Part shown: positions 54,842 through 58,022 of the stretch, in pieces
Layout of the letters: the number at the start of each line of letters is the position of its first letter
Numbering within the stretch: the stretch's first letter is position 1
Assembly (NCBI RefSeq): GCF_001618955.1
Contig: NZ_LVYV01000045.1
Location: 186,001 to 250,000 of the forward strand
Length of the DNA: 64,000 nt
DNA from: Tardiphaga robiniae
GTDB taxonomy: Bacteria; Pseudomonadota; Alphaproteobacteria; Rhizobiales; Xanthobacteraceae
Reading direction: 5' to 3'
Translations under genes and position numbers: made by a program
Notes under the pieces: model-generated
Seen by the model: only the letters and a program-made list of their open reading frames with translations
What the model was told of the DNA's origin: nothing
Databases searched by the model: none

Positions 54842-56098
54842 ATGAGCCGTTCCAACCGGATCGATCATATTCGCCTGACGTCGCATCCTGCGCCGGGCGC
54901 CAAGCATCACTTCCCGATCCAGTGGGGCGCAGCCTCCGCACGCGAACGCGGGCCGATCATTGGCACCGTTTCCCGCCCGCAGGACCGCAACGTCATTGGC
55001 ACCCATGGCGGCTCCTATTCGGTCTATCGCGCGCTCGCGGTCTCATCTGGCGCGCTTGATCCGCTGAAGCGTCCCGACCTCACAAACACCCATCCTGCTG
55101 CTATCGTCGGGCCTTTCGGACAATGGACCGATCCCGAGAAGATCGTCTCGCTCGATCCCTGGGGTCATCTCGTTGCCGAGAACTTTGCGCCCGAGATCGC
55201 CGAAGGCATCGATATCCGCCCGAGCATTGCGATCACCAAGGCGCGGCTCGATCTGCCCGAGCTGCAGGCCGCGATCGCTGGCGGTCGCCTCAAATACGAC
55301 GGCGACGTCGTGCATGCCAATGGCAGCGTCTCCGTCGTCAAGATTGCCATCGATCCCGTGTGGTATCTGCCCGGTCTCGCCAAACGCTTTGATACCAGCG
55401 AGAACAATCTGCGCCGCCAGCTGTTCGAACAGACCGCCGGCATGTTTCCCGAACTCGTCACGCGGCCTGACCTGCAGGTGTTCCTGCCGCCCATCGGCGG
55501 GACTACCGCCTATCTGTTCGGCGACGTCAGCAAGCTGCCGGATCACACGACCAAGATCACCTGCCGCGTCCATGACGAGTGCAACGGCTCCGACGTGTTC
55601 GGCTCCGATATCTGCACCTGTCGCCCCTATCTCATTCACGGAATCGAGGAATGCGCACGCGCCGGGCAATCCGGCGGGCTCGGCATCATCATCTACAACC
55701 GCAAGGAAGGCCGCGCGCTCGGCGAGGTCACCAAGTTTCTGGTCTACAATGCGCGCAAGCGTCAGGAAGGCGGCGACGCCGCTGCGCAATATTTTGAACG
55801 CACCGAATGCGTCGCCGGCGTGCAGGACGCGCGCTTCCAGCAGTTGATGCCGGACGTCGTGCACTGGCTTGGCCTCAAGCGGATCGATCGCTTCATTTCC
55901 ATGAGCGACATGAAGCATGATGCGCTGACCAGCCAGGGCGTCGAGATCGTGGAACGCGTGCCGATTCCCGACGACATGATCCCGGCCGATGCGCATGTGG
56001 AGATCGCCGCCAAGAAGGCGGCCGGCTACTTTACGCCGGACCCGGTGACACCGCAGGATCTGATCGACTCCGTCGGTCGCGGGCTTGAGAAGTATTGA
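54842..56098 (+). CDS. URC1-type GTP cyclohydrolase II-like protein (uracil catabolism)
   Basis: A 418-residue protein with a strong RBS (AGGAGG). The C-terminal half is GTP-cyclohydrolase-II-like: zinc ligands Cys247, Cys258 and Cys260 at the spacing of E. coli RibA (C-x10-C-x-C) and the catalytic segment IIYNRKEGRALGE. The N-terminal half (HDE-free; about 1-230) is unlike RibB and unique to this family. The order with DUF1688 and upp matches the URC uracil-degradation cluster known from yeasts (URC1, URC4, URC6) and bacteria. It probably acts on a uridine nucleotide to open the pyrimidine ring in the URC route; a riboflavin role is less likely given the neighbours. Confidence 0.88.
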   Translation: MSRSNRIDHIRLTSHPAPGAKHHFPIQWGAASARERGPIIGTVSRPQDRNVIGTHGGSYSVYRALAVSSGALDPLKRPDLTNTHPAAIVGPFGQWTDPEKIVSLDPWGHLVAENFAPEIAEGIDIRPSIAITKARLDLPELQAAIAGGRLKYDGDVVHANGSVSVVKIAIDPVWYLPGLAKRFDTSENNLRRQLFEQTAGMFPELVTRPDLQVFLPPIGGTTAYLFGDVSKLPDHTTKITCRVHDECNGSDVFGSDICTCRPYLIHGIEECARAGQSGGLGIIIYNRKEGRALGEVTKFLVYNARKRQEGGDAAAQYFERTECVAGVQDARFQQLMPDVVHWLGLKRIDRFISMSDMKHDALTSQGVEIVERVPIPDDMIPADAHVEIAAKKAAGYFTPDPVTPQDLIDSVGRGLEKY

Positions 56099-56108
56099 GA
56101 TATCAGCA

Positions 56109-57353
56109 GTGAATCCCCAGACCCCGGAAGCCTCTGCCGCCCTCTCCTTGCTGTCAGCTCACGCCGTGCGCACCCGTGCGCAACGCATGCTGACCCTCGG
56201 CCTCGACGACAAGCTGCCGAACTTCCGCATCGATCTCACGCGCATGGACGACGTGATCAACCTGGTGCTGGACACGACGCGCGCCTCCTATCCGTCGCTC
56301 AACGTCCCGTTCCATTCGCGCTGGCGTCACTTCGTCAATGCCGGCGACAATCGCTGGGCCGACGTCGCGGGTGGCATTTCATGGCCTGATCGCGCAGCAC
56401 GCGGGCGCGCGGAATTCGATCTCGCCATCACCAGTGTGTTCCTCGACGCGGGGGCCGGTCCGACCTGGCGCTATACCGATCCCCAAACCGGCGCGGCCAT
56501 CGGCCGTTCCGAAGGTCTCGGTCTCGCGAGCCTCGCGATGTTCGCCAGCGGCACGTTCTCTGCCGATCCCGCGCAGCCACTGCGCGCCGATGCCAGCAAG
56601 CTCGCAGAGCTCGACGTCAACGATCTCAAGCGCGGCATGCAGGTCTCCGACACCAATCCAATGGTCGGCATCGACGGCCGTGCCGATCTGCTGCGCCGGC
56701 TTGGCGAACACGTAGCGTCGAAGCCCGATGTGTTCGGCACGAAGGATACGCCGCGGCCCGGCGGATTGTTCGATCGCCTGGCCTCGCTGGCTGACAATGG
56801 CCGCCTGCCCGCCCCCACCATCCTCTCGGAACTGCTGCTGCAACTCGGCCCGATCTGGCCGTCACGGCTGACGCTGGACGGCATCGCACTCGGTGATTGC
56901 TGGAAGCATCCAGCGATGACGACCTCGGATGCGACGAGCGGCCTTGTGCCCCTGCACAAGCTGTCGCAATGGCTGGCCTATTCGCTGATCGAACCACTGC
57001 AGACAGCAGGCATCGATGTGATCGATATCGACGGCCTCACGGGATTGGCCGAATATCGCAATGGTGGCCTTTTCGTTGATGGTGGCGTCTTGAAATTCCG
57101 CGATCCCGCTGACGCCACGCGTGAGCACGACGTATCGTCGCCGCTGGTGGTGGAATGGCGGGCACTGACCGTGGCGCTACTTGACCGCGTCGCCGGCGGC
57201 CTGCGACAAAGACTGAAGCTCGACGCGACGTCGCTGCCGCTGGCCAAGGTGCTCGAAGGAGGCACATGGGCCGCCGGTCGCATCCTCGCGCGCGAGCGCC
57301 GCGAGGATCATTCGCCGCCGGTGAAGGTCATCAGCGACGGTACGGTGTTCTAG
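56109..57353 (+). CDS. DUF1688 / URC4-type protein
   Basis: A 414-residue cytoplasmic protein of the DUF1688 family, whose yeast member Urc4 is needed for uracil breakdown. Conserved-looking parts are the VPFHSRWRHFVNAG segment and the GLVPLHKLSQWLAYSLIEP and IDVIDIDGLTGLAEYRNGG stretches. No known catalytic motif is visible, and the biochemical step is not established. The GTG 56109 start is preferred over the overlapping TTG frame. It lies 10 bp after the urc1 stop and 39 bp before upp, so all three form one transcript. Confidence 0.88.
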   Translation: MNPQTPEASAALSLLSAHAVRTRAQRMLTLGLDDKLPNFRIDLTRMDDVINLVLDTTRASYPSLNVPFHSRWRHFVNAGDNRWADVAGGISWPDRAARGRAEFDLAITSVFLDAGAGPTWRYTDPQTGAAIGRSEGLGLASLAMFASGTFSADPAQPLRADASKLAELDVNDLKRGMQVSDTNPMVGIDGRADLLRRLGEHVASKPDVFGTKDTPRPGGLFDRLASLADNGRLPAPTILSELLLQLGPIWPSRLTLDGIALGDCWKHPAMTTSDATSGLVPLHKLSQWLAYSLIEPLQTAGIDVIDIDGLTGLAEYRNGGLFVDGGVLKFRDPADATREHDVSSPLVVEWRALTVALLDRVAGGLRQRLKLDATSLPLAKVLEGGTWAAGRILARERREDHSPPVKVISDGTVF

Positions 57354-57392
57354 CTCAAAGACGGTTTTACACTCTCGCAACGGATGAGGTTC

Positions 57393-58022
57393 ATGGACGG
57401 CGTCACGATCGTTAATCACCCGCTGGTGCAGCACAAGCTGACGCTGATCCGCGACAAGAACCGCTCGACCAAGGGCTTTCGCGAACTGCTCAACGAAATC
57501 GGCATGCTGCTGTGCTACGAGGTGACGCGCGACCTTCCGCTCACCGATGTTGAGATCGAAACGCCGATCATGAAGATGACCGGCAAGGAAATCGCCGGCA
57601 AGAAGCTAGTCTTCGCACCGATCCTTCGCGCGGGCCTCTCTTTCGTCGAAGGCATGATCGGCCTCGTCCCGTCAGCGCGTATCGCGCATATCGGCCTGTA
57701 CCGCGATCCCGAAACATTTGTGGCCGTGGAATACTTCTTCAAGGCGCCGACCAATCTCGACGAACGCCTCGTCATCGTGATCGATCCGATGCTGGCCACG
57801 GCGAATACGGCGGTGGCTGCCATCGATCGCATCAAGGAGCGCGGCGCCAAGGATATCCGCTTCGTTTGCCTGCTGGCAGCGCCGGAAGGCATTGAACGTC
57901 TGCGCGGCTATCATCCGGACGTCCCGATCTGGACCGCGGCGATCGATGATCGGCTGAACGACCACGCCTATATCGAGCCGGGTCTCGGTGACGCCGGTGA
58001 CCGTGCTTACGGCACCAGGTAA
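57393..58022 (+). CDS. upp: Uracil phosphoribosyltransferase
   Basis: A 209-residue enzyme, uracil + PRPP to UMP + PPi. [20 protein letters not shown] resembles the E. coli Upp start. The PRPP loop ([16 protein letters not shown], Asp/Asp-Pro-Met-Leu-Ala-Thr) and the uracil loop [21 protein letters not shown] C-terminus are intact. Its place in the URC operon, rather than with uraA, suggests that UMP or its ribose is the true substrate of the pathway (yeast Urc6 is a UPRTase). ATG 57384, three codons earlier, is a less likely start. Confidence 0.92.

Follow-up and report, generated by a model that had tools for sequence, protein, structure and literature searches.

A probable URC uracil-catabolism operon in Tardiphaga robiniae and a possible remote relation of its DUF1688 protein to the nucleosidase Qng1

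The urc1-urc4-upp operon

The system described here is a tight three-gene operon, urc1-urc4-upp, found at 54842-58022 on the plus strand of a 64,000-nucleotide stretch of the Tardiphaga robiniae genome (Rhizobiales; RefSeq assembly GCF_001618955.1, contig NZ_LVYV01000045.1, positions 186,001 to 250,000; hereinafter the window), as delineated by the open reading frame (ORF) list and Pfam matches. We consider it likely, on the grounds of sequence, to be a bacterial URC uracil-catabolism operon, in which Urc1 would open the ring of uridine triphosphate (UTP) and Urc4 would release urea; the proposal that Urc4 is related to the nucleosidase Qng1 is separate from this reading and is weighed on its own below. 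Family membership, synteny and co-occurrence all support the URC assignment.

The first gene, urc1 (54842-56098, plus strand), encodes a UTP-cyclohydrolase-like protein of 418 residues and is preceded by a Shine-Dalgarno-like AGGAGG on the same strand (54828-54833), read directly from the sequence. Its product combines a GTP_CH_N domain (PF12471, residues 9-197, 54866-55432; E 2.6e-80) with a domain like that of GTP cyclohydrolase II (GCHII), GTP_cyclohydro2 (PF00925, residues 223-374, 55508-55963; E 1.2e-13), both of which exceed the Pfam gathering cut-off. By alignment the latter harbors the zinc-ligand cysteines Cys247, Cys258 and Cys260 (codons at 55580, 55613 and 55619) along with Tyr285. 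The second gene, urc4, was called on the plus strand from a TTG at 56085 to 57353; read from the in-frame GTG at 56109 (56109-57353), it gives a protein of 414 residues matched over nearly its full length by DUF1688 (PF07958, E 6.5e-142). The third, upp (urc6-like), was called at 57384-58022 on the plus strand and has in-frame ATG codons at 57384 and 57393, from the second of which (57393-58022) it encodes a uracil phosphoribosyltransferase (UPRTase) of 209 residues (PF14681, E 4.9e-71; TIGR01091 above cut-off). If urc4 starts at the GTG and upp at the ATG at 57393, the intergenic gaps are 10 and 39 bp. Chance matches are no concern at these E-values (1e-13 to 1e-142), and the named records closest to the operon come from Tardiphaga and Bradyrhizobium. 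The original prediction, drawn from the DNA letters and their ORFs, had described this tight run of three families with its two gaps, and had seen intact RibA-type cysteine ligands in the first product: the former is borne out by the ORFs, the sequence and Pfam, and the latter by the invariance of the three cysteines, as well as Tyr285, across all 15 of the Urc1 proteins aligned.

Phyletic distribution and gene neighborhoods

Among 299 Pseudomonadota genomes, DUF1688 and GTP_CH_N are each present in 18, and the two sets are identical; in every one of these genomes the two are adjacent on one strand by the printed coordinates. A scan with Urc4 recovered 296 relatives, from which the best 80 loci were retained and their neighbors counted within 8 kb flanks: Urc1 is encoded in the fetched stretch at 71 of these loci and upp at 77. 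Nine loci show no Urc1 close by. One of them (L047) runs into the edge of its contig; for each of the remaining eight a GTP_CH_N match turns up at another place in the genome, and the same holds for the positive controls (2/2). A second, Urc1-independent DUF1688 pathway was considered for these eight loci and rejected because all eight genomes carry Urc1 elsewhere. Plasmids of Gordonia, Azospirillum and Pseudoroseomonas also carry the triplet, its members being annotated as ‘GTP cyclohydrolase II’, ‘URC4/urg3 family protein’ and ‘upp’.

Several of these loci feature further genes of nitrogen or nucleoside metabolism. In one genome (G259) ureD, ureA, ureC and ureF directly adjoin urc1; in another (G246), with no upp found in the fetched stretch, urc1 is adjoined by genes for a cytidine deaminase, a nucleoside phosphorylase and a DeoC-family aldolase. 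Clusters of DeoB-like, pyrimidine-nucleoside-phosphorylase and DeoC-family proteins occur at 23, 17 and 10 of the best 80 loci, respectively, as typed by scanning one protein of each kind; the DeoB-like protein scanned matches only the broad Metalloenzyme family. Genes for a Bmp protein and an ATP-binding cassette (ABC) transporter lie downstream of upp in G255 and Azospirillum. Cupriavidus metallidurans encodes, directly after upp, a TetR protein with a YcdC-like C-terminal domain (L133:11039-11701; PF08362, E 8.6e-53), followed by an amidohydrolase. We take YcdC to be the uracil sensor RutR, and this arrangement suggests uracil-responsive control. A gene of the 2-keto-3-deoxy-galactonokinase family (DGOK) was also observed at 18 of the 80 loci, typically just 3' of upp (median start 9947; for example, L076:9943-10851).

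Urc1 as a putative UTP cyclohydrolase

The closest solved relative of Urc1 is informative as to its substrate: the protein aligns over its full length with PDB 7EJ3 at 64.5% identity (262 of 406 aligned residues). We take 7EJ3 and 7EEV to be structures of UTP cyclohydrolase, an assumption that the PDB molecule name printed for 7EJ3, ‘GTP cyclohydrolase II’, does not confirm. The UTP-cyclohydrolase paper is reportedly that of Zhang et al. in ACS Catal in 2021, which is said to be the one belonging to these two entries. With the presumed UTP cyclohydrolase Urc1 shares the zinc cysteines, and we found no difference between the two that would bear on mechanism. Owing to this identity, the substrate of ring opening is probably UTP rather than UMP. 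The original prediction had the operon make UMP from uracil and open the ring by a cyclohydrolase-like step: its assignment to the URC pathway stands on family, synteny and co-occurrence, while UMP as the ring-opening substrate gives way to UTP as the probable one. In a further source, Zhang et al. (ACS Catal 2021;11:8895) is the reference cited for the URC pathway (PMC12507026).

The resemblance of Urc1 to GTP cyclohydrolase II (RibA) is confined to its C-terminal half, where an alignment with the E. coli GCHII shows the same zinc ligands and tyrosine in both proteins. Unlike RibA, however, Urc1 has the additional GTP_CH_N domain, scores below the curated cut-offs of the RibA models (PRK00393, 59.2 versus 148 bits; TIGR00505, 49.6 versus 205.85 bits) and, in 15 of 15 aligned proteins, has a leucine at the column of an E. 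coli GCHII arginine that we take to be Arg128. What speaks against a UTP-opening Urc1 is that the NCBIfam equivalog PRK07198, named ‘GTP cyclohydrolase II’, matches the full-length protein (751 bits; cut-off 403). That model may mislabel Urc1-type proteins as GTP cyclohydrolase II; the same name appears in the plasmid records.

In the GCHII reaction pyrophosphate is lost and a 5'-monophosphate is left. By analogy with it, we infer that the products of Urc1 would be ribosylurea 5'-phosphate and 3-oxopropanoate.

Is Urc1 the riboflavin enzyme of the genome?

The family names raise a further alternative, namely that Urc1 supplies the GTP cyclohydrolase II activity for riboflavin synthesis, as its only function or beside another, with the operon tying riboflavin or purine metabolism to uracil salvage. 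In addition to the names given by NCBIfam and PDB, the content of the source genome (G000, rated 100% complete) favors this: there is one PF00925 match besides Urc1, on contig C12 (L001, minus strand), and in it a RibB is joined to a RibA half in which none of the three zinc cysteines is retained, a fusion that resembles the RibBX type. Urc1 is thus the only PF00925 protein found in this genome with intact ligands. The original prediction had held that the lack of a ribA elsewhere, if coupled to riboflavin auxotrophy on deletion, would speak against it; no other RibA with zinc ligands is indeed found, yet relatives without the URC system show a similarly weak RibA match. Among the same-order genomes lacking Urc1, 21 of 26 have only weak PF00925 matches, the zinc cysteines having been checked in the source genome alone. 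Conversely, a strong RibA match accompanies Urc1 in 7 of the 18 URC genomes (best E <=1.0e-47), the remaining 11 having weak PF00925 matches only.

An alternative riboflavin branch in Rhizobiales has been described with a formamidase, BrbF, that was first annotated as a creatinine amidohydrolase, and the same paper states that the GTP-opening enzyme of this branch is yet to be discovered (PMC9478397). The latter point leaves room for Urc1 in that role. The former offers a route around it: the source genome encodes one creatininase-family protein (247 bits), which could be BrbF. In view of this candidate and the 21 of 26 URC-less relatives, the lack of another RibA does not make Urc1 the RibA; we conclude that riboflavin synthesis is explicable without Urc1, moonlighting being possible. 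The scores far below the RibA cut-offs, the leucine at the presumed Arg128 column and the co-occurrence of Urc1 with DUF1688 argue likewise. A riboflavin role for Urc1 is hence, in our estimate, very improbable. The immediate surroundings are in keeping with what the original prediction had noted: the four flanking genes scanned include no riboflavin gene. By Pfam, those on the upstream side encode a metallophosphatase and a cyclic-nucleotide (cNMP)-binding protein, and those on the downstream side encode a DASS symporter and a pyridine-nucleotide-disulphide oxidoreductase (with an NDH2_C domain).

Urc4 and the queuosine-5'-phosphate nucleosidase Qng1

In yeast, URC4 converts ribosylurea to urea, according to work quoted in PMC7530994. 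Pfam scans of DUF1688 proteins bring up a further family at weak scores. In a set of 49 such proteins (A1) the second family after DUF1688 itself is Q_salvage (PF10343; also DUF2419), with matches in 16 (best E 6.7e-4), as against two of the 49 for the next families; in a more diverse set of 22 (A3) it matches nine (best E 1.7e-3). The printed matches lie throughout in one region, residues 257-376 of the proteins and positions 147-257 of the 285 in the profile. Q_salvage is the family of Qng1, a queuosine-5'-monophosphate nucleosidase that hydrolyses a nucleoside 5'-phosphate and whose active-site residues include Asp298 and Trp302, as given in PMC11592518 (both statements) and PMC9406330 (the activity).

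Solved bacterial Qng1 proteins, reached via plasmid-borne relatives, allowed direct comparison. With a hidden Markov model (HMM) of A3, a solved Qng1 segment scores 14.1 bits (E 8.6e-4), at the top of 965 proteins bar a DUF1688 fragment, and the next background protein scores 3.5; with that of A1 it likewise comes first, at 8.3 bits (E 0.055; next 4.3). None of 200 column-shuffled A3 HMMs reaches 14.1 bits (maximum 6.4), and HMMs of 49 unrelated families run against the Qng1 proteins give a best E of 1.1. In hhalign, A3 against the Qng1 alignment (A2) reaches a score of 27.7 across 186 columns (P 0.0078), above each of 52 unrelated families (maximum 25.1). In the reverse direction, a thin HMM of three Qng1 sequences searched against 53 Urc4 and 962 other proteins places an Urc4 first (E 0.18), and Urc4 proteins make up 10 of the top 25. 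In a joint alignment the Asp298-x3-Trp302 of the Sphaerobacter Qng1 falls on Glu383-x3-Trp387 of Urc4 (57255-57269, plus strand), which serves as illustration and not as proof, as a joint alignment will align any input. Glu383 is conserved in 49 of 49 proteins of A1 and 21 of 22 of A3, and Trp387 in 49 of 49 and 22 of 22.

Other results weigh against this kinship. Every printed Q_salvage score is under the Pfam cut-off (best 18.0 versus 25 bits), and neither the Urc4 of the window, nor the DUF1688 consensus, nor 33 of the 49 DUF1688 proteins has a Q_salvage match at all. PDB-wide searches with DUF1688 profiles did not list Qng1, and PDB sequence searches with DUF1688 yielded nothing useful. 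The probability that hhalign assigns is 5% with A3; with A1 it is 0.7%, at a score (20.9) that unrelated families also attain. When a global comparison was forced, the probability came to 0.08%. Two weak stretches add up to the 14.1 bits, the best single one giving 7.6; the two plasmid-borne Qng1 relatives, at 2.7 and -1.4 bits, do not stand out from background; and Glu383 is replaced by Gln in the one Azospirillum Urc4 aligned. Two other surveys concern the distribution of Qng1: no Q_salvage match was found in 249 Pseudomonadota genomes, a result that is uninformative as control genomes were equally silent, and no Qng1 relatives were found in viral contigs or phages.

It is conceivable, therefore, that the URC operon stands as described with an Urc4 unrelated to Qng1, which either releases urea by means of an unrelated fold or acts as a helper or partner of Urc1, the resemblance being due to chance. 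The sub-threshold scores and the negative PDB-wide, consensus, global and A1 hhalign comparisons speak for this alternative. Less readily accommodated by it are the convergence of the Pfam, HMM and hhalign matches on the same C-terminal region, the failure of all the shuffled models to reach the observed score, and the nucleoside 5'-phosphate hydrolysed by Qng1 beside the conversion of ribosylurea to urea by yeast Urc4 (PMC11592518, PMC9406330 and PMC7530994). We consider it doubtful, though a serious contender. On balance, we lean towards Urc4 being a remote relative of Qng1, and because of the sub-threshold and negative profile results that leaning is slight. With the same reserve, we favor Urc4 as a putative nucleotide N-glycosidase of the Qng1 lineage, with a DNA-glycosylase-like fold, that would convert ribosylurea 5'-phosphate to urea and ribose 5-phosphate, Glu383 replacing Asp298. 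The likeness to Qng1 would then consist of the weak profile similarity in the C-terminal half and the E-x3-W counterpart of the D-x3-W motif, whereas Urc4 differs in falling below the family cut-off, in its greater length, in its expected substrate and in having Glu (once Gln) for Asp. We did not meet this relation in print, subscription journals lying outside the search, and DUF1688 is absent from the queuosine-precursor salvage paper PMC11130926.

Proposed pathway, urea outlet and other uracil routes

Taken together, these components can be arranged into a pathway of five steps. Upp, by its family, would join uracil and phosphoribosyl pyrophosphate (PRPP) to form UMP, which general kinases would convert to UTP. 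Urc1, as a putative zinc-dependent UTP cyclohydrolase on the GTP-cyclohydrolase-II fold, a role suggested by its identity to a solved enzyme of presumed activity, would open and cut the ring, yielding a C3 unit, either 3-oxopropanoate or, if reduced, 3-hydroxypropionate, along with ribosylurea, probably as the 5'-phosphate. Urc4 would cut the N-glycosidic bond of the ribosylurea (phosphate), somewhat more likely than not as a remote relative of Qng1, to release urea, from which urease would release ammonia. The pathway products and the role of Urc4 follow the yeast work that PMC7530994 quotes; we infer which bonds are cut, that the ribosylurea carries a 5'-phosphate and that the mechanism is Qng1-like.

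The same three families make up the URC pathway of Lachancea kluyveri (URC1, URC4, URC6) and urg1, urg3 and urg2 of fission yeast, which are clustered and strongly induced by uracil (PMC2174524). The bacterial version differs in having its genes in a one-direction operon and in its likely use of urease rather than urea amidolyase for the urea. Urea carboxylase as an outlet was rejected, its model exceeding the cut-off in 0 of 18 URC genomes; the strongest of the printed partial matches cover the first ~440 of 1201 positions, and these partial matches are taken for biotin-carboxylase domains. The source genome encodes a urease alpha subunit (contig C14, E 3.0e-54), and a strong match to this subunit family is seen in 16 of 18 URC genomes against 85 of 281 others. 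Within the same order, however, the figures are 12 of 12 against 20 of 26, and because of this ratio we regard the association as weak and mostly a matter of kinship.

The source genome also has potential for other uracil routes: a RutA-family protein (G000:C16:18600-19661, L152) scores 699 bits against a curated 498, and two proteins of the D-hydantoinase/dihydropyrimidinase family exceed curated cut-offs. Given these genes, URC need not be the sole uracil route of the genome, and the effects of single deletions could therefore be masked. They also lend some substance to the alternative that the operon serves pyrimidine salvage or control of the nucleotide pool rather than the use of uracil as a nitrogen source, as does the fact that the upp of the operon is the only UPRTase-family (PF14681) match in the genome. 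Yet the support from the other routes is itself qualified: no rut genes were recognized by eye in 18 kb around rutA, with no profile scan of these genes made, and the hydantoinase-family proteins are assigned by family alone. Moreover, the pairing of Urc1 with Urc4 is strict in the sample, and the urease, deaminase and nucleoside-catabolic neighbors seen in other genomes point to degradation. A salvage operon appears improbable to us on this evidence, and uracil catabolism remains the preferred reading.

A conserved inverted repeat in the urc1 leader

Upstream of urc1, at 54795-54816 on the plus strand, lies a GC-rich inverted repeat, GGCCCGTC-N6-GGCGGGCC, which occurs in one copy only within the window. 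It is kept between diverged flanks in seven aligned sequences, four of which are near-identical, and the leader has a folding energy of -25.9 kcal/mol (z -2.5). A repeat of the form GGCCCGTC...GRCGGGCC is found upstream of urc1 in the window and nine fetched loci (L039-L044, L046, L049 and L050), whereas the leaders of L045 and L048 have a GGCCCGCC form; where positions are printed, the repeat starts 41-64 bases upstream of urc1. One pair of the stem varies between loci, being T-A, T-G or C-G. Perfect stems of at least 7 are present in 29 of 70 urc1 leaders versus 255 of 2000 control windows, the loci being related and not independent. It is possible that the repeat is an RNA leader or attenuator, an operator, or, where an upstream gene exists, its terminator. 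Rfam gave no match at the gathering threshold across 53000-60000.

Different strong hairpins were observed at a comparable distance from urc1 in many Bosea and two Methylobacterium loci. In the window, a short divergent protein is encoded upstream of urc1 (54093-54650, minus strand), with a cNMP-binding domain as its sole Pfam match.

Implications

It has already been stated that bacteria conserve URC1 and URC4 (PMC3869809), and with the fission yeast cluster (PMC2174524) and the NCBI record names, which call Urc4 a ‘URC4/urg3 family protein’, the operon and its enzymes are to be counted as known; the possible relation of Urc4 to Qng1 is the new lead. As to annotation, the label ‘GTP cyclohydrolase II’ on Urc1 is misleading, for it makes the genome seem to have a RibA, although its RibBA protein has no zinc cysteines in the RibA half. 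If the relation to Qng1 is true, a family that Pfam lists as of ‘unknown function’ would gain a mechanism and a candidate active-site residue. The pathway would, moreover, be chemically closed, leading from uracil to urea and ribose 5-phosphate: URC would be a closed PRPP cycle, in which uracil, once attached to ribose phosphate, has its ring opened at the UTP stage and the ribose 5-phosphate is given back.

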